IMG/VR virus record: IMGVR_UViG_3300020163_000007
Span: 1-44,781 of that record
DNA: 44,781 bases
Reading direction: 5' to 3' (one strand)
Source: a virus
This document shows, one piece after another, positions 4,629 through 44,781 of this stretch. The notes beneath the pieces are model-generated. The model was not told the origin of the DNA. It saw nothing but the letters and a program-made list of their open reading frames with translations, and searched no databases. A program made the position numbers and the translations under genes. Within the stretch, counting starts at the first letter, position 1. Each line of letters begins with the position of its first letter.

Positions 4629-5183
4629 ATGAAAAAATTCCTTTTATTTTTCGCTGTTCTGTTAATAGCCATCGGCTCCCAAGGCCAACTGGTCACAAAA
4701 CAGTTCGCATTCGGGGCCAAAGGGATCGACTCGGTCTCTGGCGCCACTACGGGGTATTACTATTTTAACATGGCCGGGACAGCCGCTGCCGGAAAGGTAG
4801 TATCAACAACCCCAATCACACTCTACCAAATCTATTCCGTCGACTGCCAGGTCATCCATCCCCTGGTATACACAGCCTCGGACTCTGTACACCTCTCCAT
4901 CGAATACAGTAACGATAACACATACTGGTTCAAATGGACCAATGCAGGAGCTACCACCCAGGCAACACAGACACAATGGCTTAACGGAGGACCAACAGTA
5001 TCCGGCGCAGGATGCGTTTACCTGTACACAGATGATCTGGTTTGTACCAAAGCCGCCGACGCCGCCTGTAGCTTCAAACCCGTCAACCTTTTCGCCAAAT
5101 ATTTCAGGGTGAAATACCAGCGATACAAGGCAACATCGGCATCATACCTGCGAATCTGGGGTACTTTAATTAAAGTTAATTAA
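4629..5183 (+). CDS. Protein with Sec signal peptide between protease and capsid genes (184 aa)
   Basis: I take the ATG at 4629 because it gives a textbook signal peptide, MKKFLLFFAVLLIAIGSQGQ, with cleavage probably before Gln or Leu. The upstream in-frame ATG at 4575 would bury it. The body is beta-rich and Tyr/Thr/Ser-rich (GYYYFNMAGT, LSIEYSNDNTYWFKW), carries several cysteines (DCQVIH, GCVYLY, VCTKAADAACSF), and ends YLRIWGTLIKVN. Decoration or scaffold genes often occupy this position. An exported fate is unexpected for a head protein. Family not recognised. Confidence 0.8.
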   Translation: MKKFLLFFAVLLIAIGSQGQLVTKQFAFGAKGIDSVSGATTGYYYFNMAGTAAAGKVVSTTPITLYQIYSVDCQVIHPLVYTASDSVHLSIEYSNDNTYWFKWTNAGATTQATQTQWLNGGPTVSGAGCVYLYTDDLVCTKAADAACSFKPVNLFAKYFRVKYQRYKATSASYLRIWGTLIKVN

Positions 5184-5216
5184 TTCAATACCAATAACTT
5201 AAAATATACCACATAA

Positions 5217-6614
5217 ATGAAAACTTTAAAAACAAAACGAACCAGAAAGATCGCTATCATGGCCTGTTTGCTCCTGGCCATCATAGCCGGTATCTCTATC
5301 GCAACCGATGCCCGTAAGGGAATTGGAGCTACCATCGCCATGGCCACCCTCGTCGGGGGAGTAACCCTCGAGGGAAAAGAAGAAGCCCTCTACGTCGCCT
5401 TGAAAACGTCCATCGACTCAGAGATCGAAAAACACACCAAAGGATACATCAGCGAAACGAAGATGACTGAGAACATCAACGCTGCCCTGGCCAAATTTGC
5501 CCCGAATATCAAGGACAATGAGCATTTTATAAAACTGCAGACGGAAATCGAAGGTCTCAACGAAAAACTTAAAGCCCAGGGTCTTGAACTTAAGGCCATG
5601 AAGGAAGTAGGGAAAGTCGAGATCACCCCATCCATCGCAGCCCAGCTCAAAGCCCACCGGGAAGCGCACAAGGACCTCTGGGAAAAAATGAAAAAACCTG
5701 GCGCCCCATCCTTCGAAATCGAACTTAAAGTCGCCGGAACCATGCTCGAATCTGGTAATGTCGGAGCCGGTACTTATTTCCCCGCCATCGGTATAGAACC
5801 CGGTGTCGTCGATATCGCCCGGGCAAAACCCTCGCTGATCAAGTACGTGAATTATGCCCAAACGTCAAACCGCCTGATCATCTGGGTAGAAAAAACCAAC
5901 CCGGATGGTAACGCAGGATGGATCGCAGAAGGAGCCGTAAAACCCCTGATCGACTTCGAATACAAAACCGTCACCTCGGCCATCAAAAAGGTAGCCGACA
6001 AAATCAAGGTGTCCACGGAAATGCTCGACGATGTTGATAACATAGCTGGCGATATCAACAACGAACTGAAATATAAAGTCGATATGCTCGTCGACGCTGC
6101 AATCCTCGCAGGAACCGGCCTCAATGATGAACCGGAAGGGATCACCCACTGGGCCTCTCTTTTTGTGACCACCACCCTGGCGACCACCTCGCCAAACAAC
6201 AAAGACGCCATCCTCGCCGCTGCAGCCCAGATCCGCTCCCTGTTCTTTGAACCAGACTACGCCTTCATCAATACCATCGATGGCGCAAACATGGAAATGG
6301 AAAAAACAGACCAGGGCCTCTATATCCTGCCTCCATTTACCTCTGCTAATGGCCAAACCATTGCAGGGCTTACCATCGTCCAAACTTCATCCATCCCCGT
6401 AGGGCACGTCCTGGTCGGAGATATGAAGAAAATGAAGGTGAGGGAAAAGGGAAACTTCGTCGTCACCGTGGGATGGGTAGCCGATGACTTTGAGAAAAAC
6501 CTCGTCACCATGATCGGAGAACGCCGGATGCATATGTTTATCGCCGACAACGACTCCGGTGCCTTCATCTACGACACCCTGGCAAATATCAAATCTGCAA
6601 TAACGCAGATATAA
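5217..6614 (+). CDS. Major capsid protein (HK97 fold) with N-terminal hydrophobic segment
   Basis: This 465-aa protein is a major capsid protein by position and sequence. Residues about 60-145 form a charged coiled coil like the HK97 delta (scaffold) domain. The shell-forming part follows (SGNVGAGTYFPAIGIEPGVV, SNRLIIWVEKTNP, VDMLVDAAILAGTG, GERRMHMFIADND). The protease gene two places upstream would remove the delta domain. Unusually, residues 11-32 (ARG/LYS-rich start, then AIMACLLLAIIAGISIATDA) resemble a signal or membrane anchor, and a second hydrophobic stretch follows. A later start after this segment is possible, but no better ATG context is obvious. Confidence 0.88.
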   Translation: MKTLKTKRTRKIAIMACLLLAIIAGISIATDARKGIGATIAMATLVGGVTLEGKEEALYVALKTSIDSEIEKHTKGYISETKMTENINAALAKFAPNIKDNEHFIKLQTEIEGLNEKLKAQGLELKAMKEVGKVEITPSIAAQLKAHREAHKDLWEKMKKPGAPSFEIELKVAGTMLESGNVGAGTYFPAIGIEPGVVDIARAKPSLIKYVNYAQTSNRLIIWVEKTNPDGNAGWIAEGAVKPLIDFEYKTVTSAIKKVADKIKVSTEMLDDVDNIAGDINNELKYKVDMLVDAAILAGTGLNDEPEGITHWASLFVTTTLATTSPNNKDAILAAAAQIRSLFFEPDYAFINTIDGANMEMEKTDQGLYILPPFTSANGQTIAGLTIVQTSSIPVGHVLVGDMKKMKVREKGNFVVTVGWVADDFEKNLVTMIGERRMHMFIADNDSGAFIYDTLANIKSAITQI

Positions 6615-6647
6615 TCATATCAATCAAACCTTAAACTCTCATTCACC

Positions 6648-6824
6648 ATGGCTAAAGAAAAAATGACAGTAATCGACCTTCGCAAAAAGGTATCGGTCAA
6701 GGTAACGGACAAAAATCCGCACGCCAAAATCGGAACCATCCTGGAGGTCCATCCCATTGCTGCGGCAAAAGGGGTAGAATTGGGACATTACGAAATGGTT
6801 AAAGAAAATCTCAACAAAAAGTAA
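6648..6824 (+). CDS. Small head-region protein (58 aa)
   Basis: The frame MAKEKMTVIDLRKKVSVKV to EMVKENLNKK is intact and lies 33 bases after the capsid gene and 2 bases before the next. It is basic, probably a small beta-rich fold (VIDLRKKVSVKVTD, KIGTILEVHP) with a C-terminal helix (AAAKGVELGHYEMVKENL). Small proteins in this place are commonly head fibre or head completion proteins, or simply conserved unknowns. I cannot choose between them. Confidence 0.7.
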   Translation: MAKEKMTVIDLRKKVSVKVTDKNPHAKIGTILEVHPIAAAKGVELGHYEMVKENLNKK

Positions 6825-6826
6825 CA

Positions 6827-7396
6827 ATGCCCAACACACTGACAGTATCTTATTTCGTCGGGGAATTCAAAATACCAGATATCACTGGATCGTCTCCAGT
6901 AGCAACGGCCAATGCGAATAACCTCAAATGGTTTATCGCCAAATACGAGCCGAAGTTCCTGAAAATGCTCCTGGGTGAAGATTTGGCTGCTGCATTCCTC
7001 GCCGGAATAACTGTCACTGCCCCCGCCGTACCGGCTGCTAAATGGACCGCCCTTAAAAATAAAATATTCGTTGAGGACTCCACGAACTCGCTATACCTAT
7101 CTCCCGCCGCAAACTTCGTGTATTACCACGTGATGCGTGACCGCATCACTTTCACAACCAGCGCCGGAGAAGTACAACCGAACAATAACTCTAAAACGCC
7201 GGTACAGCAAACAAACAATAGGATGAAGATGGTCCAGGCATGGAACCAGATGTCTGAGGACGTTCTGGTGCTCTGGCAATGGTTAGAGGACAACATCGAG
7301 ACATACCCGGAGTTTGACCCATACCAGCCAGACCCGTTCGAATACGAACTGCAAGAGATCTCGAAAACAATCAACATGTTCAACATCGGAGTATAA
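6827..7396 (+). CDS. Head-tail connector-like protein (DUF6712-like)
   Basis: The 189-aa protein contains LKWFIAKYEPKFLKMLLG near residues 28-46, a pattern I associate with DUF6712 proteins of Bacteroidota phages, which sit directly after the capsid gene and behave as head-tail adaptors (gp6-like connectors). The middle is Asn/Gln-rich and the last third is acidic and aromatic (EFDPYQPDPFEYELQEIS). The helical character and position support a connector that binds the portal and closes the capsid exit. The family name is from memory; position alone gives moderate support. Confidence 0.65.
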   Translation: MPNTLTVSYFVGEFKIPDITGSSPVATANANNLKWFIAKYEPKFLKMLLGEDLAAAFLAGITVTAPAVPAAKWTALKNKIFVEDSTNSLYLSPAANFVYYHVMRDRITFTTSAGEVQPNNNSKTPVQQTNNRMKMVQAWNQMSEDVLVLWQWLEDNIETYPEFDPYQPDPFEYELQEISKTINMFNIGV

Positions 7397-7399
7397 CCC

Positions 7400-7930: not shown

Positions 7931-7931
7931 C

Positions 7932-8888: not shown

Positions 8889-8891
8889 GCC

Positions 8892-10621: not shown

Positions 10622-11313
10622 AAAACGTACCAAAATGGGTCACTGAATTAACCTCCATATGTGGGATGAAAACAACAGTACCAACCCAGACGACGTCTCT
10701 CCCGGGGAATGTTTATCGTAAGTGTAGCGAAATGATGCTGTCGGCATTTATTGACGCATATGTCAATAACAATCACGCCAGGGTGATCAAATATGGTAAG
10801 GTTCCCCCGGCTCTGGTAGAAGAAGCATGGCGAAATATTTACTTTGAATTTTGTGACCTGAGTGACACCAAATCCTACAAAACACTATTCGCCCTATCCA
10901 AAGAAATCGGGATGCTTACCAACCGGAGAAACGGAGTGAGAGTATGTCTGAAAGTTTTATCGGTAAGTTACATCCCATACTGCGAAACCTATCTGCAGAA
11001 CCTGGGATATAACTGCCACCTGGACCCGAAAAATCCCGAACAATATGCAAAAATCCTCGCCTCTATCCAGACAAAAGCAAAATCCATTGATATCGCCCTG
11101 GCTGAGAGAGAACATGAACTGCAAGCGGAATTAGAGGGGAAGGACACGCAAGAAACAACAGAGGCCGACTTCGAGAGAAACCTGGCCGAATTAGGAAAAT
11201 ACATGAGCTCCATCATCCATGCCAATGAGATCACAGTAAGTGAATACTGCGCCATCCGCAGAAAATATGACGCCGAATGTGAAGCGATGGAAAAACTCAA
11301 CAACAGAAAGTAA
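10618..11313 (+). CDS. Helical protein upstream of the tape measure (231 aa)
   Basis: The protein is helical throughout, with charged repeats in the C-terminal half (AEREHELQAELEGKDTQETT, EYCAIRRKYDAECEAMEKL). The start is Cys/Thr-rich without a membrane segment. It overlaps the previous gene by 4 bases and the tape measure gene by 1 base. Position just before the tape measure is consistent with a tail assembly chaperone or tape measure partner, but no family is recognised. Confidence 0.6.
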   Translation: MKNVPKWVTELTSICGMKTTVPTQTTSLPGNVYRKCSEMMLSAFIDAYVNNNHARVIKYGKVPPALVEEAWRNIYFEFCDLSDTKSYKTLFALSKEIGMLTNRRNGVRVCLKVLSVSYIPYCETYLQNLGYNCHLDPKNPEQYAKILASIQTKAKSIDIALAEREHELQAELEGKDTQETTEADFERNLAELGKYMSSIIHANEITVSEYCAIRRKYDAECEAMEKLNNRK

Positions 11314-14300
11314 TGGCCAACACCGGACGCATAGACGATATTATCAACATCCCGAGGATTCAGGAGCAAATTAATGCTACCAACTCAGCCCTCGACTCCA
11401 TCGTGGAGAGGATGGTCGTCATTGCCAAACACTCCGAACAGATCAAGATGGACTTCGGGGGACTCAAAGGGACCCAGGCCCTCACACGTGCGCTCCATGA
11501 CGTGGCCAAGGCCAATACCGAAGCCGAGAAGGCAAACAAGGACCTCAACGCCTCCCTGGCCAAACAGGCCGCACTCCAGGAGAAACTTAATGCCGCACTC
11601 GCTGCAGCAAAAAAACCACAGTCCGGGGGAAAATCAGACAATGCCACCCTGGACGAACAGGCCAGACTGCAAAAGAAACTCGCAGACCTCAAATCTGAGG
11701 AAGCAAAAGAAACATTCCGTCTTAAAAAAGAGATATCAGACCTCACCGCTGAACGCAAACACGAGGCCCGGATGATGGATTCCATCAAAGGGTCTATTAT
11801 TGACCTGGAGAAACATGTTAAGGAACTGACCCTTTTATATGACCAACTCGGCAAAGAGGACCGGGAGTCTGCTAACGGGATGAAACTCCAGGCCAAAATC
11901 CATGCCCTGAACACCGAGATCCGGGAAAATAAGGTCGCCCTCTCCAACATGAAGGCCAACGTCGGAAATTACCGCCAGTCGATGGAAGGACTCGGAGTAA
12001 CGGTACAACACAATACCACCCTTTTCCAAAAGTTTAAAAACACCATGCAGTCGACATTCGTCGGAACCGATGGTAATAAAAGCGGAATCGGGGCTATGAT
12101 AGCCACCATAGGAGGATACATCGCTGCCCTGGCCGGGACGTTATACTCCATAAAAAAGGTGATTGATTACAACGCCCAACTTTCCGACGCGATGGCCGAC
12201 GTGAGAAAGACCACCGGGATGACCGAAGCCCAGGTCCATTCCCTTAATGAAACGGTCCGCCATTTCGATACCCGTACCGCACAAAATTCCTTGATGGACC
12301 TCGGTGTGGTGGCCGGAAAACTCGGTGTGCCCATTAAAGAGGTATCTGGCTTCATTCGGGCTGCCGACCAAATAGGAGTCGCCCTGGGACGTGACCTCGG
12401 AGATGCGGAGGAAGCCGTCAACGCCCTGGGAAAAATGGTCGCCATCTTTAAGGTAAATGAACAGTTCGGGTTTGAAACTGCACTACTTAAGGTCGGATCA
12501 GCTCTAAGGATGCTTGGAAACAACTCAACTGCCACGGAGGAAAACATCGTGGAATTTACCAAGATGTTCGGAGGGATAGGCCCCCTTGCAAAACTGAACA
12601 TCGCCCAGGTAATGGGATTCGGTGCAACACTCGACCAACTCGGTCAATCTGCCGAAGTATCCGCCACCGCATTGAGCCAGGTGTTCCTGCGCATGTTCAA
12701 GGAACAAGATAAATTCGCTAAGGTCGCAGGAGTAAGCACAAAAGAATTTTCCCACCTTCTCAAAACCGACGTAAATGAAGCATTCATCCTATTACTCCAG
12801 GGACTCAACCGTGGAGGGACCGGACTGGAGGAAGTAACAAAGAAAATGGGATTCCTCGGCACAGGAGGACGTAGGGTAGCCGGGGTACTTGCAGTATTAG
12901 CACAACATATCGATATCCTGCGCCGTAGCCAGGAATTATCAGCTATTGAGATGCAAAAGGGAACTGCCCTGACCGAACAGTTCAACATCAAGAATACCAA
13001 CATGGCTGCGAGTATTGACAAACTCGCAAAGGCATGGAAGAACTTTCTGGCAAACTCCGGAACGATAGGATTCTTTACAAACCTTATAGATGCCCTCGCT
13101 GCTTCATTTCGGGGACTGGCTGATTCGCTTTCTGATGATCCGATGGTTAGACTACAGGATAGTCTTAAATTCTGGCAATCACAAAGAAAAATAGGAGGGG
13201 GAGAATATGGAGAAAATAGTGCTGTTGCAAGTAATGTAAAATCTATAAAGGAACAGATTAGACTGCTTCAAATTAAACGTGATATTGAGGCCGCAGAGAT
13301 GGAAAAACAGAAGGAAAAAAACAAACTTCTACAGGAAAACATTGCAATCGAAAAATCCAGATATGGGAATGCGCAGGTGCCATTTACTCCCGAAATAACC
13401 CCACCTGGGGTAATGACACAAGGGATTCCCCTCGCCCCGCCGGGGACTTACCTAACTCCGATCGAAACCGAGGAAGAAATCATAACCCGGCAGCAAGTAG
13501 CCGAAGCCGAAAAAGCCAAACGTGAGGCCATCGCAGCAAAGAAAAAAGCTGACCGGGAAGCCTCCGAGATGGAAAAACTCAATAAAAGCGCCGAGAAACT
13601 CCTGGAGAAATCGTACGAGATCCGGGTAGAACTCGGGATGGTCTCGCTGGAGCAGCAGGAAAAACACGAAAAAGACTCCCTGCAAAAGAGAATCGACGAG
13701 ATCAACGCCGATGGACTTTCGAGAATCAAGACAGAAAAACAGATACAGGAAGAGCTCGCCCAGGTAGGGGACCCGATACAGAAAGCTGCCATGAGAAAAG
13801 AACTCGAAGCGACAAATGCGCTGGCAAAGGAAAAGATTATCTCCTGGGAGGATACGAACAAAATGAAGGAGGCCATCACCCTCAAATATATCGACAAAGC
13901 AAACGATATCGAGAAGGCCGCCGCAGACAAGATGAAAACTTACATGGATACCGTGAAACAGAAACTCACGGAAACTGCCCGGATCGCTGAGCTCTCCGAC
14001 ATAACAAAACTGTCGACAAAAAAACTCGCAGACAGAGAGGATATCCGGGGCCAGTTAATGAGAAGGGAAATCACGATAAAGGAATTCAAACGCCGGGAAA
14101 AGGAGATCAACGAACAATATGACGCAGACATTCTGCAATCTACCATCACCGCATCGGAGAAACTCATCGGGGTGATAGAAGAATATAATAAGAAAGCCCT
14201 CGAGAAAGGGGAAACAGCCTTCATCTCTACCCTGGATCTGGAAAATAAAATAGCTGAGGCCAAAATCGCCATATCAAACAAGGTAGAGGGTGTTTATGAG

Positions 14301-15704
14301 GAAAATAATGCAAAGAGGATCGAGGACGAGAAACGGGCAAACGAGTTACTTAAAGAGAAAAGCATGGAACTGTTCCGTGCATTGGGATCACTTGTCTCAA
14401 CGTATTATGACGCCCAGGCCGCACAGATAGATGGAAATTTAAGTAAGAACAAAGATGCATGGGATAAAGAACTCGCTGCCGCCAAGGGTAATGAAAAACT
14501 CGAAGCCCAGATAAATCGTAGACGAGCCGCCGAGGAAGAAAGCCTGAACAAACAGAAAAAGAAGATACTGCATGACCAGGCCGTAGTAAACAAGGCATTC
14601 GCTATCGCTGACGCTACGATAAACACCGCCGTCGCAGTTACAGCAGTAATGGATATCCCAATCGTAGGGCAAGTATTGGCTATCCTGGTAGCCCTGACCG
14701 GTGCCGCTGAGATAGCCACAATTATAGCCACACCAATCCCGGAATATGCAAAAGGGAGGAAAACCGGACAAGCCGAATATGCCATCGTCGGAGAAAAGGG
14801 AACGGAGGCCGTCAAACTGCAAAACAAAAAGACTTATTTAACCCCGGATACTGCGTCCCTGACCTATCTACCCCAAGGAGCCGAGGTAATCCCTCATGAG
14901 AAATTAATCAAGGAATTCTCGCTCCAACCATACTTAACTACAAGCACCATAACCAACAATCCATTAACGGAAAACACTTTTATCACCAACGAGAATAAAT
15001 CGACCACAATATCCCCAATTAACACCAAAACTATCAATCCATTAACGGAAAACACTTTTATCACCAACGAGAATAAATCGACCACAATATCCCCAATTAA
15101 CACCAAAACTATCAATCCATTAACGGAAAACACTTTTATCACCAACGAGAATAAATCGACCACAATATCCCCAATTAACACCAAAACTATCAATCCATTA
15201 ACGGAAAACACTTTTATCACCAACGAGAATAAATCGACCACAATATCCCCAATTAACACCAAAACCAACAATCCATTAACGGAAAACACTTTTATCACCA
15301 ACGAGAATAAATCGACCACAATATCCCCAATTAACACCAAAACCAACAATCCATTAACGGAAAACACTTTTATCACCAACGAGAATAAATCGACCACAAT
15401 ATCCCCAATTAACACCAAAACTATTCAACAATATTTTATTGAGAAACCCTTAATTCCACCATTGAAAAACGACTATGCATTCCCAATTGATGACATCTTG
15501 AAGATGGCCGTGAGATTTTCCATGCCAACGTCGACCGCAAAATCAAAAGAATCCGCTCCCGGTATTTTTGTGACCGTCAACAACCCCTTCGGCAAAGAAA
15601 TACTGTCCGAATTAAAGAAACCAAAAATAGAAACCTCCATCACCGACATGGGTGACAGGGTGAGATACCAGACAGGAAACTACAGTTTAATAATCAGGAA
15701 ATGA
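11313..15704 (+). CDS. Tape measure protein
   Basis: The 1463-aa protein fits a siphovirus tape measure, which sets tail length and is extruded on infection. Residues about 20-230 form a coiled coil. A membrane-like helix follows near 257-285 (GGYIAALAGTLYSIKKVIDY), then the TP901-type core (LSDAMADVRKTTGMTEAQV, then FDTRTAQNSLMDLGVVAGKL). After a second coiled coil comes another hydrophobic stretch near 1115-1145 (VGQVLAILVALTGAAEIATI). The C-terminal part contains six identical-looking 26-residue repeats. The length suggests a tail of roughly 200 nm by the usual 1.5 angstrom per residue rule, if fully helical. Confidence 0.93.
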   Translation: MANTGRIDDIINIPRIQEQINATNSALDSIVERMVVIAKHSEQIKMDFGGLKGTQALTRALHDVAKANTEAEKANKDLNASLAKQAALQEKLNAALAAAKKPQSGGKSDNATLDEQARLQKKLADLKSEEAKETFRLKKEISDLTAERKHEARMMDSIKGSIIDLEKHVKELTLLYDQLGKEDRESANGMKLQAKIHALNTEIRENKVALSNMKANVGNYRQSMEGLGVTVQHNTTLFQKFKNTMQSTFVGTDGNKSGIGAMIATIGGYIAALAGTLYSIKKVIDYNAQLSDAMADVRKTTGMTEAQVHSLNETVRHFDTRTAQNSLMDLGVVAGKLGVPIKEVSGFIRAADQIGVALGRDLGDAEEAVNALGKMVAIFKVNEQFGFETALLKVGSALRMLGNNSTATEENIVEFTKMFGGIGPLAKLNIAQVMGFGATLDQLGQSAEVSATALSQVFLRMFKEQDKFAKVAGVSTKEFSHLLKTDVNEAFILLLQGLNRGGTGLEEVTKKMGFLGTGGRRVAGVLAVLAQHIDILRRSQELSAIEMQKGTALTEQFNIKNTNMAASIDKLAKAWKNFLANSGTIGFFTNLIDALAASFRGLADSLSDDPMVRLQDSLKFWQSQRKIGGGEYGENSAVASNVKSIKEQIRLLQIKRDIEAAEMEKQKEKNKLLQENIAIEKSRYGNAQVPFTPEITPPGVMTQGIPLAPPGTYLTPIETEEEIITRQQVAEAEKAKREAIAAKKKADREASEMEKLNKSAEKLLEKSYEIRVELGMVSLEQQEKHEKDSLQKRIDEINADGLSRIKTEKQIQEELAQVGDPIQKAAMRKELEATNALAKEKIISWEDTNKMKEAITLKYIDKANDIEKAAADKMKTYMDTVKQKLTETARIAELSDITKLSTKKLADREDIRGQLMRREITIKEFKRREKEINEQYDADILQSTITASEKLIGVIEEYNKKALEKGETAFISTLDLENKIAEAKIAISNKVEGVYEENNAKRIEDEKRANELLKEKSMELFRALGSLVSTYYDAQAAQIDGNLSKNKDAWDKELAAAKGNEKLEAQINRRRAAEEESLNKQKKKILHDQAVVNKAFAIADATINTAVAVTAVMDIPIVGQVLAILVALTGAAEIATIIATPIPEYAKGRKTGQAEYAIVGEKGTEAVKLQNKKTYLTPDTASLTYLPQGAEVIPHEKLIKEFSLQPYLTTSTITNNPLTENTFITNENKSTTISPINTKTINPLTENTFITNENKSTTISPINTKTINPLTENTFITNENKSTTISPINTKTINPLTENTFITNENKSTTISPINTKTNNPLTENTFITNENKSTTISPINTKTNNPLTENTFITNENKSTTISPINTKTIQQYFIEKPLIPPLKNDYAFPIDDILKMAVRFSMPTSTAKSKESAPGIFVTVNNPFGKEILSELKKPKIETSITDMGDRVRYQTGNYSLIIRK
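14958..15425 (+). repeat. Six tandem 78-bp repeats in the tape measure gene
   Basis: Units start at 14958, 15036, 15114, 15192, 15270 and 15348. Each encodes NPLTENTFITNENKSTTI followed by SPINTKT and a variable linker residue. They are nearly identical at the DNA level, differing only in the Ile or Asn codon at the junction. This indicates recent expansion or continuing copying. The unit is in frame, so copy number can change without breaking the gene. The repeats are Thr/Asn-rich and not helical. Confidence 0.95.
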
Positions 15705-17635
15705 TCATCGGACGGGACAAATATCGTTTTTATATCTGCACAGATGGAACAAACTTCTATCCTGTCCTGCTTGTTAAACCCGTTACAATATCTGGCGAAA
15801 AACAGGAAAAGTTAGGAGATTTCAGAAGGAAATCCTCTGAGTGGAAACTCGAGAGATTCGAAAACGTGACAGTCTACAATGCCATCATCGCAAAAATCGC
15901 CTCACCATCCACCCAGACTACAAAGATCCAGGTGAAAGTAGAACTCTGGGATAACTGGATAGATTTTACAAGTATCGAATTTGAAGGATACGTCCCGATC
16001 GGTTCCATTAAATCAAACCAGGACGAAGGAATCCTGCAATTTACTCCAGAGGATGAAAGCATCTACACATGGTGGGACGAACACAAAGAAGATAGTAAAA
16101 ACCTCATAGCAGAACCGTCAGTGATCCCAACCCCAGACAGAATCACCATCGAGGACACAAGTATTCCAACCGAATATTATCTCCCGCTTTCACTCGCGTG
16201 TGAGCATTTTAAAAACTTTTTTGTAGGGAACCATAGCGACTCAGAGGCAAATGGATTGAATATCCAACACTGGACAGATGCAAAGGGAACTTATTATTTC
16301 GCTGACGAGCTCGGGCCAATTTGGAGAAAAGAAGGATGGGTAGTCCGTGCCGACATTTGGAAATTTTACTATTGCATTCAGACTCACGTTCCAAACACAT
16401 ACCTGAATAAGCCTTTATCCGGACTGCACTGGACCGAGTACTGGACCGCATTCGATGACTATCCATACGACAATGCAGTATATCATGTGATCCAGCAAAG
16501 ATCAGAGTTCCACCTGCCAAACTTTGTACGTGGGAATGGAATCTATCAGCCAATGTTCACTAAAGAATTGGGAGATAACCTGGAGGCCACAAACTGCCCC
16601 GAGAATAAATACTGTTACGGGGGAGCCTCTGTTGTTGCGGGCCTGGCCACCATATCGGACCTTGGAAATATTCCAATCGCCAATGCTATCAATTTTTTCC
16701 TCACCGGATCAGGAATGACGTTTTACTCCGATTTTTTCTCCCTTGCAACAAATCCCGTCACCGGACTGCCCAATAAACTCACGAACCAATTCCTTTCACA
16801 TAAGGCATATTTAAAAGGAACAAATGACGAGAACACTAAGGGAGAAATAACACTGGAAGCCCTGATCAGTGCTCTCTGTGATGAATTTAATTGTCAATGG
16901 TACATTGATCCGATAAATGAAAATTTTGTCTTTGAGCATATTAAATTTTTCGAAAACGGGAAACAATATGCTGATGGCACACCCGGAATTTATACAGACC
17001 TGACTGACAAAACCAAATACCCGGCCCTTAAATATCAGACCATCGAGGACGTGGAAGGAAATCCAACAGATAATGAATTTTCCCTTGAGAAGGAGTCCCC
17101 ACAGAAGGAAACATTTAAATTATCTGATACGGTGGACCTGGTTAGCGAAATTAAGTATGATTCAGCATTTTGTAAAAAAGGAGAAACCGAGCAACACGTG
17201 GTAGGAGCCTTGACAACTGATATCGCATTTGTTATAAGTTACCCGGACAAAAGCTCTGATGACACGTACTGCCATCTCGCCTGTGATGCCAACAAAACGA
17301 TCTATCGCCGGGATTTTACCCAGGGAATGACTATCCGTGTTTTTGAAGATTATGCCAACGGAGATCTCATGTATGACAATTTGATCCGGGATTTTTGGAT
17401 TCATGACAGGCATATGATCTCCGGGAAAATCAATCTGGATGCCGCCGCCACCACATTCGAAACCCAGAAAAAAACAAAATTACAACGTGAGATCATCTTC
17501 CCAAGAGTCGAGGCCGGAAGATTTGACCCAGCAAAACTTATTACCACCAATATCGGCAATGGAGAGGTGAAATCATTCGAGATAAACACCGACACAGATC
17601 GCATCAAGGTATCACTTTTATATGAAATGGGATAA
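15701..17635 (+). CDS. Baseplate hub-like tail protein (644 aa)
   Basis: It directly follows the tape measure gene (4-base overlap), where distal tail and hub proteins lie. The N-terminal third is beta-rich (KYRFYICTDGTNFYPVLLV, VELWDNWIDFTSIEFEGYV). The middle has ITLEALISALCDEFNCQWYI, resembling hub domains that start a folded module, and the end is beta-rich again. It is acidic and aromatic with no membrane segment. In Bacteroidota siphoviruses a protein of this size and place forms the tail tip hub that carries the fibres. Assignment is by position and composition. Confidence 0.6.
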   Translation: MIIGRDKYRFYICTDGTNFYPVLLVKPVTISGEKQEKLGDFRRKSSEWKLERFENVTVYNAIIAKIASPSTQTTKIQVKVELWDNWIDFTSIEFEGYVPIGSIKSNQDEGILQFTPEDESIYTWWDEHKEDSKNLIAEPSVIPTPDRITIEDTSIPTEYYLPLSLACEHFKNFFVGNHSDSEANGLNIQHWTDAKGTYYFADELGPIWRKEGWVVRADIWKFYYCIQTHVPNTYLNKPLSGLHWTEYWTAFDDYPYDNAVYHVIQQRSEFHLPNFVRGNGIYQPMFTKELGDNLEATNCPENKYCYGGASVVAGLATISDLGNIPIANAINFFLTGSGMTFYSDFFSLATNPVTGLPNKLTNQFLSHKAYLKGTNDENTKGEITLEALISALCDEFNCQWYIDPINENFVFEHIKFFENGKQYADGTPGIYTDLTDKTKYPALKYQTIEDVEGNPTDNEFSLEKESPQKETFKLSDTVDLVSEIKYDSAFCKKGETEQHVVGALTTDIAFVISYPDKSSDDTYCHLACDANKTIYRRDFTQGMTIRVFEDYANGDLMYDNLIRDFWIHDRHMISGKINLDAAATTFETQKKTKLQREIIFPRVEAGRFDPAKLITTNIGNGEVKSFEINTDTDRIKVSLLYEMG

Positions 17636-18699
17636 TGAAAAACCTGGACACCGCCTTCCCTTTTTATGATGCCCTGCTCGAACAATATCGATATCGCAAA
17701 GGGGTATCATGTGTCCCGTTTATTCTTTGCCCGACCACCAACCTGGTGCCTTGGATTATCCGTAGACCCCATAATGCAGGGGATGGGGACGACATCACCG
17801 TATGGGTGACACCATGCAACGGGGGAACCCCTATCGAGATCCATGGCGACGATTTCGGTCTGTTAGTTACCGCCGGGACGAGTTACGATTTTATTTATTA
17901 TACCGGGACATCACTCCCCAATCCCCTGCCACACAATGCAGGGGGATACTACCTGGACGTTGAAGATCTGACATCAAATAAACATTGGTACAGCGAAACC
18001 TTCGGAGTGCGCTCATCGATGACAGATTATTTTTACCTGGAATTCAAGAACGATACTGAACGTGGGAATATTGCTGCATACTTCATCCAGGGGGTGTGGT
18101 TTGACATTGACCTGGTAGCCCCTATTTACATTCGGGAAGATACTGGAGAGAAACGTGACGGTATCCTGGTGAAAGAAAAACAGATCAAGATGAAAGCCCG
18201 GGTCATTAGACTCCAGATGGCTCCGGAATACCTAACCGATGCACTGATCAGACTGGATATGCAAGATTACGTCGCATACGCCACCGGGGGAACAACCTCT
18301 GTGGTGAAACAGGTGATCATCAAGGAACCGGAATTCACCCAGGAAAGCCTCGGCCTGTTCGCCAAAATGGAGATTCAACTGATATGGGACATCGAAATCA
18401 AAAAGTTAAATTTTAAAGAAATGGGATACAGCTATGGAAATTCAAGCAATGGAATAACGAAAACCGGGATCGGGGAAACCACGTTCCACAGTGGGGTATA
18501 CGAACTCCCGGTCGCATTTGAGGAAGTTATGCCTGATGGGAATTATGTCCCCGACGTGCCGATCTGCGTGACCGTCGCATTACCAGGAAACCCCGAGAGG
18601 CCAATCATCCCATTGGATCTTATCACAGCTAACGGATTTTTAATAAGAACAATGGTTCCATGTTATGTGAGATGGAACGCAATCTGGACACAGCCATGA
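17635..18699 (+). CDS. Tail tip / minor tail protein (354 aa)
   Basis: The gene overlaps the preceding hub stop by 1 base and the next start by 4. The N-terminus (FPFYDALLEQYRYRKGVSC) is followed by beta-rich segments (DDITVWVTPCNGGTPIEIHG, AGTSYDFIYYTGTSLPNPLP), and the end has VCVTVALPG-like and YVRWNAIWTQP stretches. I take it as a structural part of the tail tip between hub and fibres. No known motif is visible. It has no signal peptide, in contrast to the four genes that follow. Confidence 0.55.
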   Translation: MKNLDTAFPFYDALLEQYRYRKGVSCVPFILCPTTNLVPWIIRRPHNAGDGDDITVWVTPCNGGTPIEIHGDDFGLLVTAGTSYDFIYYTGTSLPNPLPHNAGGYYLDVEDLTSNKHWYSETFGVRSSMTDYFYLEFKNDTERGNIAAYFIQGVWFDIDLVAPIYIREDTGEKRDGILVKEKQIKMKARVIRLQMAPEYLTDALIRLDMQDYVAYATGGTTSVVKQVIIKEPEFTQESLGLFAKMEIQLIWDIEIKKLNFKEMGYSYGNSSNGITKTGIGETTFHSGVYELPVAFEEVMPDGNYVPDVPICVTVALPGNPERPIIPLDLITANGFLIRTMVPCYVRWNAIWTQP

Positions 18700-19538
18700 A
18701 AAAAATGAAATTGATCGGATTGTTTATGCTCCTCTCCCTGGGTCTCCAGGCACAATGGAACGATCGAGTCGATACCATGTACTTCCACCTGGGAAATGGG
18801 TTCGTGTGGGATATTATCACTTATGGAAACCCCGACAGTTTATCGATAAACGGGATTAAGTTCTATACAACCATGACCGGGACGGAAACGGACCCCATCT
18901 GGACTGCTGACCAAAACCAATACCTAACCTCGAGCGATGCTGCTGAAATTTATGAACCAATTATTGTAGCCGGAACATATCTGACTCCTGCAGGAGAAGA
19001 AAGAGTATCGGGAGCCAAAACCTTCGAAAATGCAACATTGAAAATTAGAGATGCCACGGATCGATACAACACAACAATACAGACAACCGCCACCGCAGAC
19101 CGAGCCGTTACATTTCCTGATGCAGCCGGAACCATTGCTTTAACGTCAAATATTTCAATTATGACAAGATATTCTGCCTATTCATCAGGGAACAACAATG
19201 TGGAGGTACTGGCCGATTCTGTGGGGATTACTGTAACAGTCGCTAACACCAATGAATTCACGTTTATAATCCCTGCCCATGTCAAACTGATATCGGCCAA
19301 AATCCATCTGGGAACAGGATTCTCCTCCCTGAAAGTTTTCATGGGAACCACCGATATGGGAAATACGACTGCACTCAATCGATGGATGCCGATCACACAG
19401 GGATGGAGGGAGGATAGTGGACAACAATTAACAGGGCTGACTGTGGTGATGGACAATTCAGGGACACCCAATTATCAAAAGTTTACAGTGAATGGTTTAA
19501 TTACCGGGGCAAACAATCTGATAAGGATAGAATTCTAA
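18696..19538 (+). CDS. Tail fibre-type protein with Sec signal peptide (280 aa)
   Basis: The ATG at 18696 overlaps the previous stop and gives MKKMKLIGLFMLLSLGLQAQ, a classic Bacteroidota signal peptide, so I reject the upstream frame from 18660. The middle has a fibre-like segment (YNTTIQTTATADRAVTFPDA, AGTIALTSN) common in phage tail fibres, and the C-terminal 90 residues look like a jelly-roll or Ig-like domain. It begins a run of four genes with the same signal peptide type, directly after the tail tip genes. The role is probably fibre or receptor binding. Confidence 0.75.
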   Translation: MKKMKLIGLFMLLSLGLQAQWNDRVDTMYFHLGNGFVWDIITYGNPDSLSINGIKFYTTMTGTETDPIWTADQNQYLTSSDAAEIYEPIIVAGTYLTPAGEERVSGAKTFENATLKIRDATDRYNTTIQTTATADRAVTFPDAAGTIALTSNISIMTRYSAYSSGNNNVEVLADSVGITVTVANTNEFTFIIPAHVKLISAKIHLGTGFSSLKVFMGTTDMGNTTALNRWMPITQGWREDSGQQLTGLTVVMDNSGTPNYQKFTVNGLITGANNLIRIEF

Positions 19539-19541
19539 AGC

Positions 19542-20198
19542 ATGAAAAAGTATCTGCTTTCGCTGATATTTTTTATTTCAATAATAACCCAGGCCCAAAT
19601 CCGGGCCAGGTTTGATGTTGCGGAGGTGACATTCGTGGACGATACGACATGGACTCTTTCTGGAACCATTGAGGACCCGTCAGGATCATATACGGGATTG
19701 TCGGTGCAAACAGGAGATAAGATTATCATGCGAGGATACAATACGGATGGAGTTACGGTATATGACAGATTTCGGATCATTGGGATCCCATCCGAGGGTA
19801 TCAACGCAATAACAGTGACAGTGCGAAACGATTTAACAGGAGGGGTGCAAAACAATACCGGAGGACCCCTGAGTGGATCCTTTCCTATTGGAAGTCCTGT
19901 CGCCATGACAAAACTGACATTTAAACCATCCTGGTACCAATGTAATATTGACCCCGATTATGATACCGGGATGGATAATATGAACCTCACGGAAATGGAG
20001 ATTAAAGAAAGATGGCAAATCGAAATCCGAGACGATAGTGAAAACTCATTGTCCCTGCCGTTTTATTTAAAATCAACTTCTACCATCATATATAACGGAA
20101 CCCCTCTACGGCCAAGTCAATGGTCGGGATCGGGAACCGCCACCCTTTTACTTAACGTGGATGTAAGGAAATACGACCACATAACACTAATCAATTAA
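19542..20198 (+). CDS. Secreted fibre-associated protein (218 aa)
   Basis: The start MKKYLLSLIFFISIITQAQ is a signal peptide. The body is beta-rich (DTTWTLSGTIEDPSGSYTGL, YDRFRIIGIPSEG). The last 45 residues (IIYNGTPLRPSQWSGSG, then VDVRKYDHITLIN) match in pattern the end of the next gene (VQLNGLNLKPTQW, then CYQYDQVQVSYSY). The two genes therefore share a C-terminal module, perhaps a tip or assembly domain. Function beyond this is unknown. Confidence 0.75.
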   Translation: MKKYLLSLIFFISIITQAQIRARFDVAEVTFVDDTTWTLSGTIEDPSGSYTGLSVQTGDKIIMRGYNTDGVTVYDRFRIIGIPSEGINAITVTVRNDLTGGVQNNTGGPLSGSFPIGSPVAMTKLTFKPSWYQCNIDPDYDTGMDNMNLTEMEIKERWQIEIRDDSENSLSLPFYLKSTSTIIYNGTPLRPSQWSGSGTATLLLNVDVRKYDHITLIN

Positions 20199-20208
20199 AA
20201 AAAAAATC

Positions 20209-21315
20209 ATGAAAAAGTTAGTTTTAATTTTCGCAGTCATCCTGGTCTCCTACGGAGGTATTGCCCAGGTTGCAACGCCAAGCAATCAACTCAGGATCGC
20301 TGACACCACAACTGCCACATTGGGGCAAAATATTCCGAAAGGCACAACCGTCTATGTAATCAGCATAGACAGGTATTTCGTAGCGAAGTCTGCTTGCATA
20401 TCAACAGACAAGGTTACGTATCTGAAATTTTCGAATCAGGGAAAACTTAATGTTGGGACATCGAATGGGTTGAGCATCACGAATAACGGTCAGACCGTGA
20501 ACATGGCAGCAGCTTCGACCAGCACAACAGGGGCATTGTCGAACACCGACTGGAACACTTTCAACGGTAAGGAAAATGCACTCACAAAAGGTAACCTGAC
20601 TGAGACCACGTCAGGCGTATTGACAATCACCGGAGGCACCGGGGCCGTAATCGGGTCGGGTGCATCTATCCAAGTGAAGCAGGCGAATACAAGTCAGGGA
20701 GGTTACTTATCGAATACGGACTGGAACACTTTCAACGGGAAAGAAGATAATTTGACGTTCTCCGCGCCACTGGTCAATACCGCACACACAATAACGATCA
20801 GCGCAGCAACGACCGGCACAGCCGGGTCAATGAGTGGGGCGGATAAGACGAAACTGGATGCAATTACCGGATCAAATACCGGGGATCAAACCATCACCTT
20901 AACCGGAGATGTAACCGGTTCCGGAACCGGTTCATTTGCAACTACTATCGCTAATAGTTCAGTTACGCTTGCCAAACAAGCGAATGTTGCGACCGGTACG
21001 ATCATGGGAAGAACAACAGCCGGTACGGGCGTTCAGGAAGCGTTAACAGTAGCGCAGGTCAAGACAATGCTCGGAACAGGAGGGATTGCAGCAGTATATG
21101 ATTATGAGCAACTTGTTGACAGTGTAACGCTCAACACAGGGGGAACCTACAACAGGGTAACACTTGCAAATACACCGTTGACGGGATCAATCGCAGTCCA
21201 ACTTAATGGGCTGAACTTGAAGCCAACTCAATGGGCTCTAAGGAGTTCAACGAAGATTTGCATTTTGGTGCCTTGTTATCAGTATGATCAAGTTCAGGTG
21301 TCCTATTCTTACTAA
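20209..21315 (+). CDS. Tail fibre protein with Sec signal peptide (368 aa)
   Basis: The signal peptide MKKLVLIFAVILVSYGGIAQ is followed by a Thr-rich N-domain. Then come two copies of a fibre motif (LSNTDWNTFNGKE near residues 110 and 170) and Gly/Thr-rich fibre segments (ITLTGDVTGSGTGSFATTIA). The LSNTDWNTFNGK motif is common in Bacteroidota phage fibres. The C-terminal module is shared with the preceding gene. Base use is more T-rich than in the head genes, which suggests separate acquisition of the fibre block. A perfect 20-bp palindrome at 20913-20932 falls in the Gly-Thr repeat and may be coincidental. Confidence 0.82.
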   Translation: MKKLVLIFAVILVSYGGIAQVATPSNQLRIADTTTATLGQNIPKGTTVYVISIDRYFVAKSACISTDKVTYLKFSNQGKLNVGTSNGLSITNNGQTVNMAAASTSTTGALSNTDWNTFNGKENALTKGNLTETTSGVLTITGGTGAVIGSGASIQVKQANTSQGGYLSNTDWNTFNGKEDNLTFSAPLVNTAHTITISAATTGTAGSMSGADKTKLDAITGSNTGDQTITLTGDVTGSGTGSFATTIANSSVTLAKQANVATGTIMGRTTAGTGVQEALTVAQVKTMLGTGGIAAVYDYEQLVDSVTLNTGGTYNRVTLANTPLTGSIAVQLNGLNLKPTQWALRSSTKICILVPCYQYDQVQVSYSY

Positions 21316-21318
21316 CCT

Positions 21319-24300
21319 ATGAGAAATCAGTTTATCTTTTTCCTCGTATTTCTTCCCGCCTTACTTCTGGGTCAGGTTTCTCCACGCCCGAATGTATCTG
21401 TACCAACAGCAACGACTGATTTTCTTGTCAATGTGCCAGCAGGAACTACCGTGTTCTGCAATTCGACCGGGAGGGAATATGTCACCTTGCAGACAATCAT
21501 AACAACCGATGATCTGACAAGTGCATCCGCTAAGTTCAAGGAAATCCCTACCGGAGTTGCACCGAATGATTCTGTTAAGAATCCTTGGATTTATTTGGCA
21601 GGGTACACTATTCAGAGGGGAACGGGCAACGTCGGCATCGGGACGACGAGTCCCAGTGAAAAGTTAGAGATTTCTGGTTCTGGAACACAAAGATTTCTAA
21701 TAACTGAAACTGGAACTGGGGTTCAGACATCGTTAAAATCAGCGTCGGGAGGTTATGGCATATTTGGAACAGTTTCAAATCACGCAATGAGAGTTCAAAC
21801 TAATAATTTGGACAGAATGACAATAGATAATACCGGCAACGTCGGCATCGGGACGACGGGACCAAGTAATCTGCTTGATGTTTCTAAATCAGTTTCAGGA
21901 GGAGTGGGGGCAATCGTTCAATTGACTAACCCAGCGACAACTGCCGCAAACAACGCCGTTGAATTGCGTCTTGCTCCTTCTTCCGCATATGCCAGCCGTT
22001 ATGCTGCAATTCAAGCGATTAATGACGGAAGTAATAGTATTGTTCTCTCATTTTTAACAGGTGCAGGAGCCAGTATTACTGAAAAAATGAGAATTTTAAG
22101 TGGTGGAGGAATTACTATGTATGGGGGGAATTTAACGATAGCAAGCCCTGGAATTTTGAAGGTAGATGGCACTGAAAATTCTTCATTCGCAGGCAACGTC
22201 GGCATTGGGACGACAGCGCCCGCTTCAAAACTATCAATCAATGGCGGACTTCACGTAGGTGGTGATTCAGATGCTGGAGATAATAATTTAATTGTTGACG
22301 GAACAATTAAACTGGGGACGACTTACACAAACACGCTTCAAAATGCACTAATGTCGAGCAACAAGGTTATCACACTTCCCAATGCCACGGGAACAGTTGC
22401 GCTGACATCGGACATCCCGTCAATATCCGGATCAACTAATTCCTATGCAATGTTTACAGCACCTAATGTAATTGGCGATGGGGCAATTTGGAATTACGAA
22501 GGTGTTCCACGAGCCGCAGCATTTCATCTTTTCACAGGCGAATCCGGAATCCCATTTAAAATAATAAATGATCCGGCAGGTATAACGACTATGGAGGTAG
22601 ATCAGGATAACAGCACAATAACTTTTTTTCATGATTACGTGTATGATGGAGTAAGTTTTGGTTCTATCGGGGTAGGTACAGTGCAGCCGGAGGCAAGGTT
22701 AGATATGGTGTCCAGAAAATATTCATTCGATCAGTTTAGAACTATGACTGATGCATCAAGTCCTTATGATTCCTGTTTTGTTATAACAAAAACAGGAAGT
22801 ACCGGGATCGGAACTATCACTCCTTTTGCCCCACTTACTGTATCATCAAATAGTACTCCGGAAGGAACTTTTATTTCTACCGCCTCTCTTGGAGCTAATG
22901 TGGGTGCTGGAGTTGGGTTATATGTCAACGCACTGCCAACGGCCAGCGGACAGAGGATAGGTAGTTACACTTTCGGAAGTCGGGTATCATCAACGAGTTC
23001 ACATGGAGCGGGATTAACGGCTTATTCAGAGGGGGCTTGGACGGCGGGATCATCATATCCGACATATTTAGTTTTGCAAACAACAGCATCCGGGAGTGCA
23101 GCGAGAACTGAGAGGATAAGGATTACTTCCGTTGGCAACGTAGGCATCGGAGTAACATCACCTACTTCGCTGTTACACATCAGAAAAGACAATACATCAG
23201 TAAGTGATCCGCAATTCGTTATTGATAATGTCGCTGGCGATTATAAATTAGCTATTGGTGTTAATTCGACTACTTCGCTTGCGACCATTCAGCCCTGGTC
23301 GAACCCAGGTGAAGGCTTTGCGCCATCTCACCTGGCAATTAATCCGACGGGTGGATATGTTGGGGTGGGAACATTAACCCCAACCTGCAAACTTGACGTT
23401 GTTGGACAGGCGAAGGTCTCGACACTAATGGTCAATGGATACAATGTAACGGTCAACTCAGATATTGCCCTGCCGCAATCAGGTATTTGGTCTGCAAATG
23501 AAACAAGTGCATATTATACGGCTGGAAATGTCGGTATTGGCTATAATACGCCGACGCACAAATTGGAGGTTGCGGGAACTGTAGGTTTTACGGGTGGAGC
23601 CGTAGACATCAACGCAGGTTCTAATTATGCGACAAATATCTGTACAGGCACTTCAACCGGAACCGTGACCATTGGTGGTAGTGCGGCCCAGGTGATAAAT
23701 ATTGGTGCAACCGGAACCGGAGATCATGATCTCCTTATCGGTAATCTTGTTACAGGAAGTACTACCACAATCCGTTCCGGTGACGGTGGAATGAATCTTG
23801 TGAGCGCCGGTTCAAATGTGATTGAATCAAATCCGAATAGTATATTAAGTCTCAATAGTGGAATTAATGCTCCGACTTCTATTAATGCCGGGACATCGAC
23901 AGGAACTGTCACAATCGGTGGTTCACAAGCGCAGACTATCGAAATCGCAAACAATGCATCGGGAATTAAGACGGTAACAATAGGAAATACTGTCTCAGGC
24001 TCTACAACAGATATCCGTGCATCAGTTCCGGGAATAAATGTATCGAAAATTGCGCTTGTATCCGGATCAAATGCCACGGCCACAACTTCGCTCGTGGACA
24101 TTACAGGACTGATCATTACTTCGCTGGCGGCGTATGGTTATTATGAATTTGAAGCAGTATTAATTGTCGGAACGAGCAATGATAATAATGGAAATAAATA
24201 TGCCGTCAATTTCACATCATCAGGAAGCCCATCGGTAGTGGCAATGATTGATGGCTCCTATACTTCGACAGCCAATAAAACAGAAAGAATATCAGCTCTG

Positions 24301-24477
24301 ACAACTGCATCTGGGGTTTATATGACCACAGCCTCACAGACGGGAGGAATTTTAATTAAAGGAATTTTAATTGTCGGATCGCTCCCCGGCAGCATTACCA
24401 TCCAGCACCAGCACCCGACATCAGGAACTTCCACTGTGTATGTCGGTTCATATCTAAAGGTAACAAGAATTTCATAA
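21319..24477 (+). CDS. Large tail fibre protein with GNVGIGTT repeats (1052 aa)
   Basis: After a signal peptide (MRNQFIFFLVFLPALLLGQ) and an N-domain resembling that of the previous gene (PAGTTVFCNSTGREYVTLQT), the protein repeats GNVGIGTTSPS-type motifs about every 70-300 residues. This is a widespread trimeric fibre repeat. The last third has TGTVTIGGSQAQTIEI-type repeats, and the end is a compact beta domain (ILIKGILIVGSLPGSITIQH). I see no intramolecular chaperone motif. It is probably the receptor-binding fibre. GNVGIGTT repeats are also near identical as DNA (GGCAACGTCGGCATCGGGAC at two sites). Confidence 0.88.
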   Translation: MRNQFIFFLVFLPALLLGQVSPRPNVSVPTATTDFLVNVPAGTTVFCNSTGREYVTLQTIITTDDLTSASAKFKEIPTGVAPNDSVKNPWIYLAGYTIQRGTGNVGIGTTSPSEKLEISGSGTQRFLITETGTGVQTSLKSASGGYGIFGTVSNHAMRVQTNNLDRMTIDNTGNVGIGTTGPSNLLDVSKSVSGGVGAIVQLTNPATTAANNAVELRLAPSSAYASRYAAIQAINDGSNSIVLSFLTGAGASITEKMRILSGGGITMYGGNLTIASPGILKVDGTENSSFAGNVGIGTTAPASKLSINGGLHVGGDSDAGDNNLIVDGTIKLGTTYTNTLQNALMSSNKVITLPNATGTVALTSDIPSISGSTNSYAMFTAPNVIGDGAIWNYEGVPRAAAFHLFTGESGIPFKIINDPAGITTMEVDQDNSTITFFHDYVYDGVSFGSIGVGTVQPEARLDMVSRKYSFDQFRTMTDASSPYDSCFVITKTGSTGIGTITPFAPLTVSSNSTPEGTFISTASLGANVGAGVGLYVNALPTASGQRIGSYTFGSRVSSTSSHGAGLTAYSEGAWTAGSSYPTYLVLQTTASGSAARTERIRITSVGNVGIGVTSPTSLLHIRKDNTSVSDPQFVIDNVAGDYKLAIGVNSTTSLATIQPWSNPGEGFAPSHLAINPTGGYVGVGTLTPTCKLDVVGQAKVSTLMVNGYNVTVNSDIALPQSGIWSANETSAYYTAGNVGIGYNTPTHKLEVAGTVGFTGGAVDINAGSNYATNICTGTSTGTVTIGGSAAQVINIGATGTGDHDLLIGNLVTGSTTTIRSGDGGMNLVSAGSNVIESNPNSILSLNSGINAPTSINAGTSTGTVTIGGSQAQTIEIANNASGIKTVTIGNTVSGSTTDIRASVPGINVSKIALVSGSNATATTSLVDITGLIITSLAAYGYYEFEAVLIVGTSNDNNGNKYAVNFTSSGSPSVVAMIDGSYTSTANKTERISALTTASGVYMTTASQTGGILIKGILIVGSLPGSITIQHQHPTSGTSTVYVGSYLKVTRIS

Positions 24478-27154: not shown

Positions 27155-27156
27155 AG

Positions 27157-44731: not shown

Positions 44732-44781
44732 TCCATCTAACAAGCGATATATGACAAACCTCCTCCTCTATATCCGGGTCA
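44634..44781. repeat. Terminal direct repeat, copy 2 (circular overlap)
   Basis: The last 148 bases match 1-148 with two mismatches in the hexamer array. Joining the ends gives a circle of about 44,633 bp in which the Gly-X gene is continuous. Confidence 0.9.

Follow-up and report, generated by a model that had tools for sequence, protein, structure and literature searches.

Predicted Sec signal peptides on a cement-like gene and four fibre-like genes in the late gene run of an unclassified virus record

The stretch of DNA analysed here (hereafter, the window) is the unclassified virus record IMGVR_UViG_3300020163_000007 at its full length of 44,781 bases. Its late-type gene run, which starts with the portal gene, contains five genes (named below by their start positions; Table 1) of which the products begin with predicted Sec-type signal peptides: 4629, located between the protease gene and the major capsid protein (MCP) gene, and 18696, 19542, 20209, and 21319, located directly after the last tail gene. 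An earlier note on this DNA had pointed to these N-termini in the head and tail gene blocks, and both the signals and their locations were confirmed in our analysis. Signal peptides were scored with a purpose-written rule-based script, and a few further cases were judged by eye. L-numbers (L110, L187, and so on) are the labels of the comparison loci and records.

Signal peptides of the five proteins

The N-termini, up to the predicted signal peptidase I (SPI) site (arrow), are MKKFLLFFAVLLIAIGSQG↓Q for 4629, MKKMKLIGLFMLLSLGLQA↓Q for 18696, MKKYLLSLIFFISIITQA↓Q for 19542, MKKLVLIFAVILVSYGGIA↓Q for 20209, and MRNQFIFFLVFLPALLLG↓Q for 21319. All five passed the rule-based calling, each with a basic n-region, a hydrophobic core, a pair of small residues at -3/-1, and glutamine at +1, and are by prediction textbook Sec signals with an SPI site. 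Glutamine is found at +1 in a mean of 71% of the SPI substrates of Bacteroidetes and is converted to pyroglutamate (PMC5837995); in a follow-up study, the pyroglutamate mark was tied to the stability of extracytoplasmic proteins (PMC10653852). Such sites are called Q-rule sites below. Among signal-like N-termini, glutamine at +1 occurred in 31/125 for Bacteroidota-phage loci and in 0/59 for gammaproteobacterial HK97-like phage loci (p = 3e-6), a comparison that serves as a guide and is not calibrated, because our own caller was used and the control represents a single redundant lineage.

Translation from later starts, named in the earlier note as a possible refutation, was rejected because the gene junctions contradict it: the start of 18696 overlaps the preceding stop by 4 nucleotides (nt), and the starts of 19542, 20209, and 21319 lie 3, 10, and 3 nt past the preceding stops, whereas starts placed beyond the signal peptides would leave gaps of 53-88 nt. 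The start of 4629 lies 31 nt past the preceding stop, and its next possible start codon is codon 48. The identity of these genes as lysogenic-conversion cargo (morons) was also rejected, since they lie on the strand of the neighbouring virion genes and overlap or abut them. Close to the integrase and a regulator, away from the virion genes, a small protein with a Q-rule-like signal peptide, MNKSILLFVLALPLFSLAQ↓V, is encoded at 26801-27160 on the minus strand and is a candidate cargo gene. No NCBIfam model of the type IX secretion system (T9SS) C-terminal sorting domain matched with E-values up to 1, and T9SS export was rejected on this basis; no lipobox was seen on the five proteins. Thus, no surface anchor is evident.

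The four distal genes belong to the same gene run as the tail genes. The product of the gene before them, 17635, is related to tail-region proteins of Croceibacter, Parabacteroides, and Elizabethkingia phages. The 21319 product matches PHROG tail-fibre families (E = 2e-21 and 7e-10) and resembles annotated phage tail fibres, and Pfam, PHROG, and NCBIfam gave no informative name for 18696, 19542, and 20209. The C-terminal segments of 19542 and 20209 appear alike by eye. In the search of viral contigs for close relatives, none was found for 19542 and one weak match for 21319.

Table 1. Late-type genes and signal peptides of the window (arrow, predicted cleavage site)
Feature	Position	Strand	Remarks
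Portal	2472		Start of the late-type gene run
Protease	3845-4597		Upstream neighbour of 4629
MCP-adjacent cement-like protein, 184 residues	4629..5183	+	Predicted signal peptide 4629-4685 (SQG↓Q), mature part from 4686
HK97-type major capsid protein	5217..6614	+	Pfam Phage_capsid, E = 1e-26; N-terminal hydrophobic leader
Tape-measure-like protein	11313-15704		Among the head-tail and tail genes downstream of the MCP gene
Tail gene	15701		Between the tape-measure-like gene and 17635
Final tail gene before the fibre-like genes	17635..18699	+	Without signal peptide; tail-region relatives in other phages
Fibre-like protein 1, 280 residues	18696..19538	+	Predicted signal peptide 18696-18752 (LQA↓Q); fibre-type segments by eye only
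Fibre-like protein 2, 218 residues	19542..20198	+	Predicted signal peptide 19542-19595 (TQA↓Q)
Fibre-like protein 3, 368 residues	20209..21315	+	Predicted signal peptide 20209-20265 (GIA↓Q); weak PHROG match of unknown function
Large tail fibre, 1052 residues	21319..24477	+	Predicted signal peptide 21319-21372 (LLG↓Q); GNVGIGTTSP-type repeats; PHROG tail-fibre match
Holin-like protein	24552		Downstream of the fibre-like genes
Lipoprotein	24808		Downstream of the holin-like gene

Three further features of the window were recorded. Tandem repeats of the unit NPLTENTFITNENKSTTISPINTKT lie close to the C-terminus of the tape-measure-like protein (14894-15418). A GH16-type beta-glucanase-like protein (assigned by eye; 33960-34685), without signal peptide, is encoded among early genes, apart from the fibres. 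Both ends of the record (1-100 and 44480-44740) are low-complexity coding sequence (MAMALAMAM... and YGYGYGSGYG...), possibly one repeat split on a circular map.

The cement-like family and the capsid leader

Gene 4629 adjoins the MCP gene, a head-module position. In locus L110, of which the MCP is 65% identical to that of the window, a homologue is encoded at the same place; the two proteins are 32-36% identical overall, with 11/19 identical positions (58%) in the signal peptide and 48/147 (33%) in the mature part, and SQG↓Q is kept exactly. At other MCP-related loci, a diverged relative with a signal peptide and the pattern '.TvtNtaTxY...TKiSGTvaGTvtLqGSnDGTnYvtv...' lies directly after the MCP gene. 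A profile connected the family to gp07 of Pseudanabaena phage Pan5 (start, MKKLFLLVALVIGMASITQA↓Q), which is named cement protein in its record, where the basis of the name is not stated. In a scan of species genomes, the cement-like domain was found in Bacteroidota only (Pedobacter zeae, Chitinophaga rhizosphaerae, several Chitinophagaceae, Flammeovirgaceae, Flavihumibacter, Taibaiella, and Flavipsychrobacter).

A signal peptide with glutamine at +1 is present in essentially all complete Bacteroidota members (about 30), among them each complete member from the species genomes and viral loci L281-L293. There are a few exceptions or doubtful cases. In L116, the glutamine lies inside the c-region (AKPQA↓N) with no clear glutamine at +1. 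In L139 (11123-11761), the cement-like domain and an internal signal-like segment stand in frame behind a small head protein with no intervening stop, as a fusion or with an internal start. Weak profile matches in L111 and L043 are without signal peptide. The homologous domains in phage contigs L294-L303 also have none; in L299 and L302, the gene for a major head protein (phrog_3437) stands two genes before the domain. The signal-bearing gene lies beside at least three MCP families, namely, the Phage_capsid type (window), phrog_7231 (L268 and L272), and phrog_267 (L271).

Since the mature 4629 protein of the window gave a model of too low quality for use (pLDDT, predicted local distance difference test, 49), the domain of a relative, L117, was used for the fold comparison. 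It was modelled as an eight-strand beta sandwich (pLDDT 85), and VIA-align matched the model to XepA (Z 11.0), BPP-1 cement (Z 9.1), YomS (Z 9.0), and a Carin1 capsid chain (Z 8.2). This predicted fold is consistent with a cement protein and is no proof of one, because such jelly-roll-like sandwiches are very common. A sequence search found no solved structure of the Pan5 capsid or of the cement-like family; the matches to glutamate receptors were at chance level.

The window MCP itself has two hydrophobic N-terminal segments (residues 12-26 and 35-49; leader, 5217-5370) with no Q-rule site. This leader is kept in L110 (33/50 positions identical to the window), and hydrophobic leaders, often with two segments, occur in the MCPs of the window, L110 (position 8581), L113 (10001), L114 (1770), L117 (1534), L119, L125 (2234), L141, L175, L182, L269 (1172), L271 (8737), L282, L283, and L292. 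These MCPs span at least two families, and the segments resemble a membrane hairpin; most relatives are without the leader. Among the MCP-related loci, the leader tends to accompany a signal-bearing cement-like neighbour (p about 0.002, with lineages counted by hand). The leaders on some MCPs may belong, together with the proposed export of outer virion parts, to one membrane-linked programme. Similar MCP leaders have been noted in Porphyromonas gingivalis phages, where the prohead protease was presumed to cut them off (PMC10367356).

Signal-bearing fibres in prophages and cultured phages

Downstream of a signal-bearing cement-like gene, distal fibre signal peptides with Q-rule sites were found in 5/6 of the Bacteroidota prophages followed. 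The signal-bearing distal genes encode products of 995 residues in P. zeae, 749 in C. rhizosphaerae, 788 and 212 in Flavipsychrobacter, 995 and at least 1321 in L310, and 1176 and 378 in L311. In Pan5, two fibres carry signal peptides, 18042 (ALS↓Q, judged by eye, with an unusually long n-region) and 20965 (TTA↓Q). Signal-bearing fibres and a signal-bearing cement-like gene thus occur together in the window, Pan5, Pedobacter zeae, Chitinophaga rhizosphaerae, two Chitinophagaceae, and Flavipsychrobacter. Pan5 (L187, ON968456) is a reported Pseudanabaena cyanophage; gene by gene (portal, MCP, adaptor, terminator, tail) it is related to Chitinophagaceae prophages, and its Q-rule signals are of the Bacteroidota type. 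The phage may in truth infect a Bacteroidota organism that accompanies the reported host in culture.

Among core open reading frames (ORFs) between the head and the fibres in nine genomes, Q-rule signal peptides were found in 0/91; a 92nd flagged frame, which is the window fibre 18696 read from an upstream start, was left out of the count. Because the boundary of the core was partly set by the first signal-bearing fibre, this count shows that the intervening genes are without signal peptides and is no independent test of the fibres. By these sequence criteria, the predicted signals are correctly formed and conserved, and within a contiguous late-type gene block only the cement-like gene and the distal fibre genes carry them. 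Signal-bearing fibres as a general trait of Bacteroidota phages were rejected, as the fibres of Harreka, snusmum9-1, TCUEAP2, P2559Y, and most B40-8-type relatives are ordinary ones.

Evidence on virions comes from cultured Cellulophaga phages, for which assignments by tandem mass spectrometry (MS/MS) are given as notes of the depositors in the GenBank records. Eleven signal-bearing fibres are marked there as MS/MS structural proteins (phi19:1 gp101-104, phi10:1 gp091-094, and phi18:3 gp085-087), and 10/11 have glutamine at +1 (INA↓Q, VSA↓Q, LNA↓Q, LSA↓Q, SFG↓Q, GYS↓Q, and others); the remaining one, gp104 (FSFG↓K), was judged by eye. In four MS-analysed phages, all 10 rule-called signal-bearing proteins of the fibre block were marked as structural, compared with 0/16 of the other signal-like or lipoprotein-like proteins (p = 2e-7), although the 16 may be missing from the virion annotation partly because they are small or expressed early. 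Small Q-rule proteins encoded outside the virion genes of Cellulophaga phages (L009 8973-9332; L015 19867-20181 and 49261-49551; L018 558-848) are not recorded in virions and are possible host-envelope modifiers.

In phi17:2, the fibre domains of these phages recur with no signal peptide: gp054 corresponds to gp102 (49% identity, 656 residues), gp050 to gp103, and gp049 to gp104. The phi4:1 genes, of which gp047-gp052 are MS/MS-verified, are cited as the models for these phi17:2 genes. Therefore, the same receptor-binding or depolymerase-like domains are recorded in virions both with and without a Sec signal. Signal-bearing N-termini such as MKKTIYILSILLLTISGVSA↓Q are common to fibres from two phage families, Assiduviridae and Pachyviridae, and the block of signal-bearing fibre genes therefore acts as a module that is portable between phages.

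Proposed export of virion parts and comparison with known systems

We somewhat favour the reading that the cement-like protein and the distal fibres are exported via Sec, cleaved, folded in the periplasm, and joined to the particles at lysis. Its parts differ in strength. Sec export of the five proteins is well supported by their predicted N-termini, and virion membership of exported fibres in relatives is well supported by third-party mass spectrometry; cleavage, periplasmic residence, the cement function of 4629, and attachment at lysis are steps that we infer. Under this reading, the cement or decoration protein and the distal fibres would be made as Sec precursors, exported by SecYEG, and cut by the host signal peptidase I before the glutamine, which would then probably be cyclised to pyroglutamate by a host cyclase. 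The exported proteins would fold and oligomerise in the periplasm, beyond the reach of heads and tails in assembly in the cytoplasm, and finished core particles would meet and bind them when holin, endolysin, and spanin break the envelope. The earlier note left three explanations side by side: fibre assembly outside the cell or in the periplasm, display on the cell surface, and anchoring. Of these, export of virion parts is favoured by the MS/MS assignments in relatives, and anchoring is disfavoured by the kept Q-rule SPI sites.

An unlikely alternative is that the proteins are displayed on the surface of infected or lysogenic cells (for superinfection exclusion, adhesion, or receptor masking) and that their presence in virion preparations is contamination. 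Exported repeat proteins like the 21319 product are numerous in Bacteroidota, and vesicles can take up exported proteins. The Q-rule genes of P. gingivalis phages were interpreted as surface-acting (PMC10367356). However, the genes in the window are contiguous with tail genes through the overlap and short gaps described above and are not separate cargo, only the fibre-block proteins among the signal-bearing ones are recorded as structural in the MS-analysed phages, and the same domains are virion proteins without signal peptides in phi4:1.

It is rather less probable that proteins of the 4629 type, instead of serving as capsid cement, are exported like XepA and act in lysis or on the envelope. 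The best structural match of the L117 domain is indeed this exported protein of PBSX, which is absent from virions (PMC6834076), but the BPP-1 cement also matches, the fold is a common one, the gene adjoins the MCP gene in many phages and does not lie in the lysis cassette, and the Pan5 homologue is annotated as cement, on whatever basis.

We regard as improbable that the N-terminal segments remain uncleaved as membrane anchors, with fibres and cement loaded onto particles docked at the inner membrane. The MCP leader of the window and several relatives, which tends to co-occur with the signal-bearing cement-like gene, hints at assembly near the membrane; nevertheless, an SPI site with glutamine at +1, for which an anchor has no need, is kept in 5/5 of the proteins and in nearly all of the about 30 cement-like relatives, and an anchored body would sit in the periplasm, away from the cytoplasmic particle. 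Hardly credible is the acquisition of the fibre signals by recombination with host secreted adhesin genes without any role for the phage: fibre genes recombine often (mosaic matches) and the 21319 repeats resemble those of secreted bacterial proteins, but the signal peptide is more conserved than the mature part between 4629 and its L110 homologue, the motif is kept in nearly all cement-like members, and four adjacent genes with unrelated mature parts each carry a signal.

Several observations weigh against export followed by attachment at lysis. The four window fibres are without close homologues in the searched sets, and the evidence for their virion membership is therefore an analogy of position and architecture. 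The cement role is suggested by the order of the genes, by a fold that is common, and by the name that the Pan5 record uses. In Flavihumibacter (L312) and in the viral records L304 and L306, a signal is present on the cement-like gene and absent from the fibres, and most B40-8-type relatives carry neither signal. Moreover, as the MS/MS assignments are those of the depositors, exported proteins could have co-purified in vesicles, though other exported-type phage proteins went unrecorded.

Extended beyond the window, the proposal would be that the periplasm serves many Bacteroidota phages as a compartment of its own for the outermost virion parts (cement and distal fibres), which are exported via Sec and join the particle only at lysis; we put this forward tentatively, as a possibility that falls slightly short of an even chance. 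Tailed phages are taught to be finished in the cytoplasm before lysis, and export of cement and fibres would split the assembly over two compartments, with completion at lysis. This would explain how sticky or capsid-locking parts stay off immature heads, and host-range proteins would gain a periplasmic folding environment and, probably, a protease-resistant N-terminus. A Q-rule signal peptide beside the MCP gene or after the tail genes would also serve as a sequence mark for receptor-binding or cement genes in Bacteroidota phages, including those of the gut and the sea, where most genes lack names.

Coat proteins of filamentous phages carry Sec or membrane-insertion signals and are assembled at the envelope; these virions are extruded without lysis, and the proteins are unrelated to the fibres and cement of tailed phages. 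The Q-rule SPI substrates described in Bacteroidetes by Bochtler in 2018 (PMC5837995) share with the five proteins the Sec signal peptide and the glutamine right after the SPI site; phages are absent from that study, whereas the signals here are on phage cement-like and fibre genes. In the open-access literature searched, no paper tied Q-rule signal peptides to virion proteins of tailed phages, and phage Q-rule genes have been reported once, in the P. gingivalis phages of the proposed Nixviridae (PMC10367356), in keeping with the remark of the earlier note that no explanation is accepted. Those phages likewise have several Q-rule genes and MCPs with signal-peptide-like N-termini, but the genes were left without a function and taken to alter the outer membrane of the host, with no link to virion assembly.

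The Cellulophaga phages phi19:1, phi10:1, and phi18:3 (KC821607, KC821618, and KC821620) are alike in their consecutive Q-rule signal-bearing fibre genes after the tail genes, with MS/MS structural assignments; they differ in that the signals are unannotated in the records, the fibre sequences are unrelated to those of the window, and, for phi19:1 and phi10:1, no signal-bearing cement-like gene was seen beside the MCP gene. Pan5 (ON968456) and the Chitinophagaceae prophages have both the signal-bearing cement-like gene after the MCP gene and the signal-bearing distal fibres, with a different MCP family (phrog_7231 type in L272) and, for Pan5, a reported cyanobacterial host. The capsid cement of BPP-1 (PDB 3j4u) shares the beta-sandwich fold and the place in the head module and is assumed to act from the cytoplasm, whereas the Bacteroidota family adds a Sec signal peptide. 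Fibres and cement-like jelly rolls are known kinds of genes, and what varies here is the export signal on them; attachment outside the cytoplasm, if confirmed, would be a new assembly route for tailed phages.

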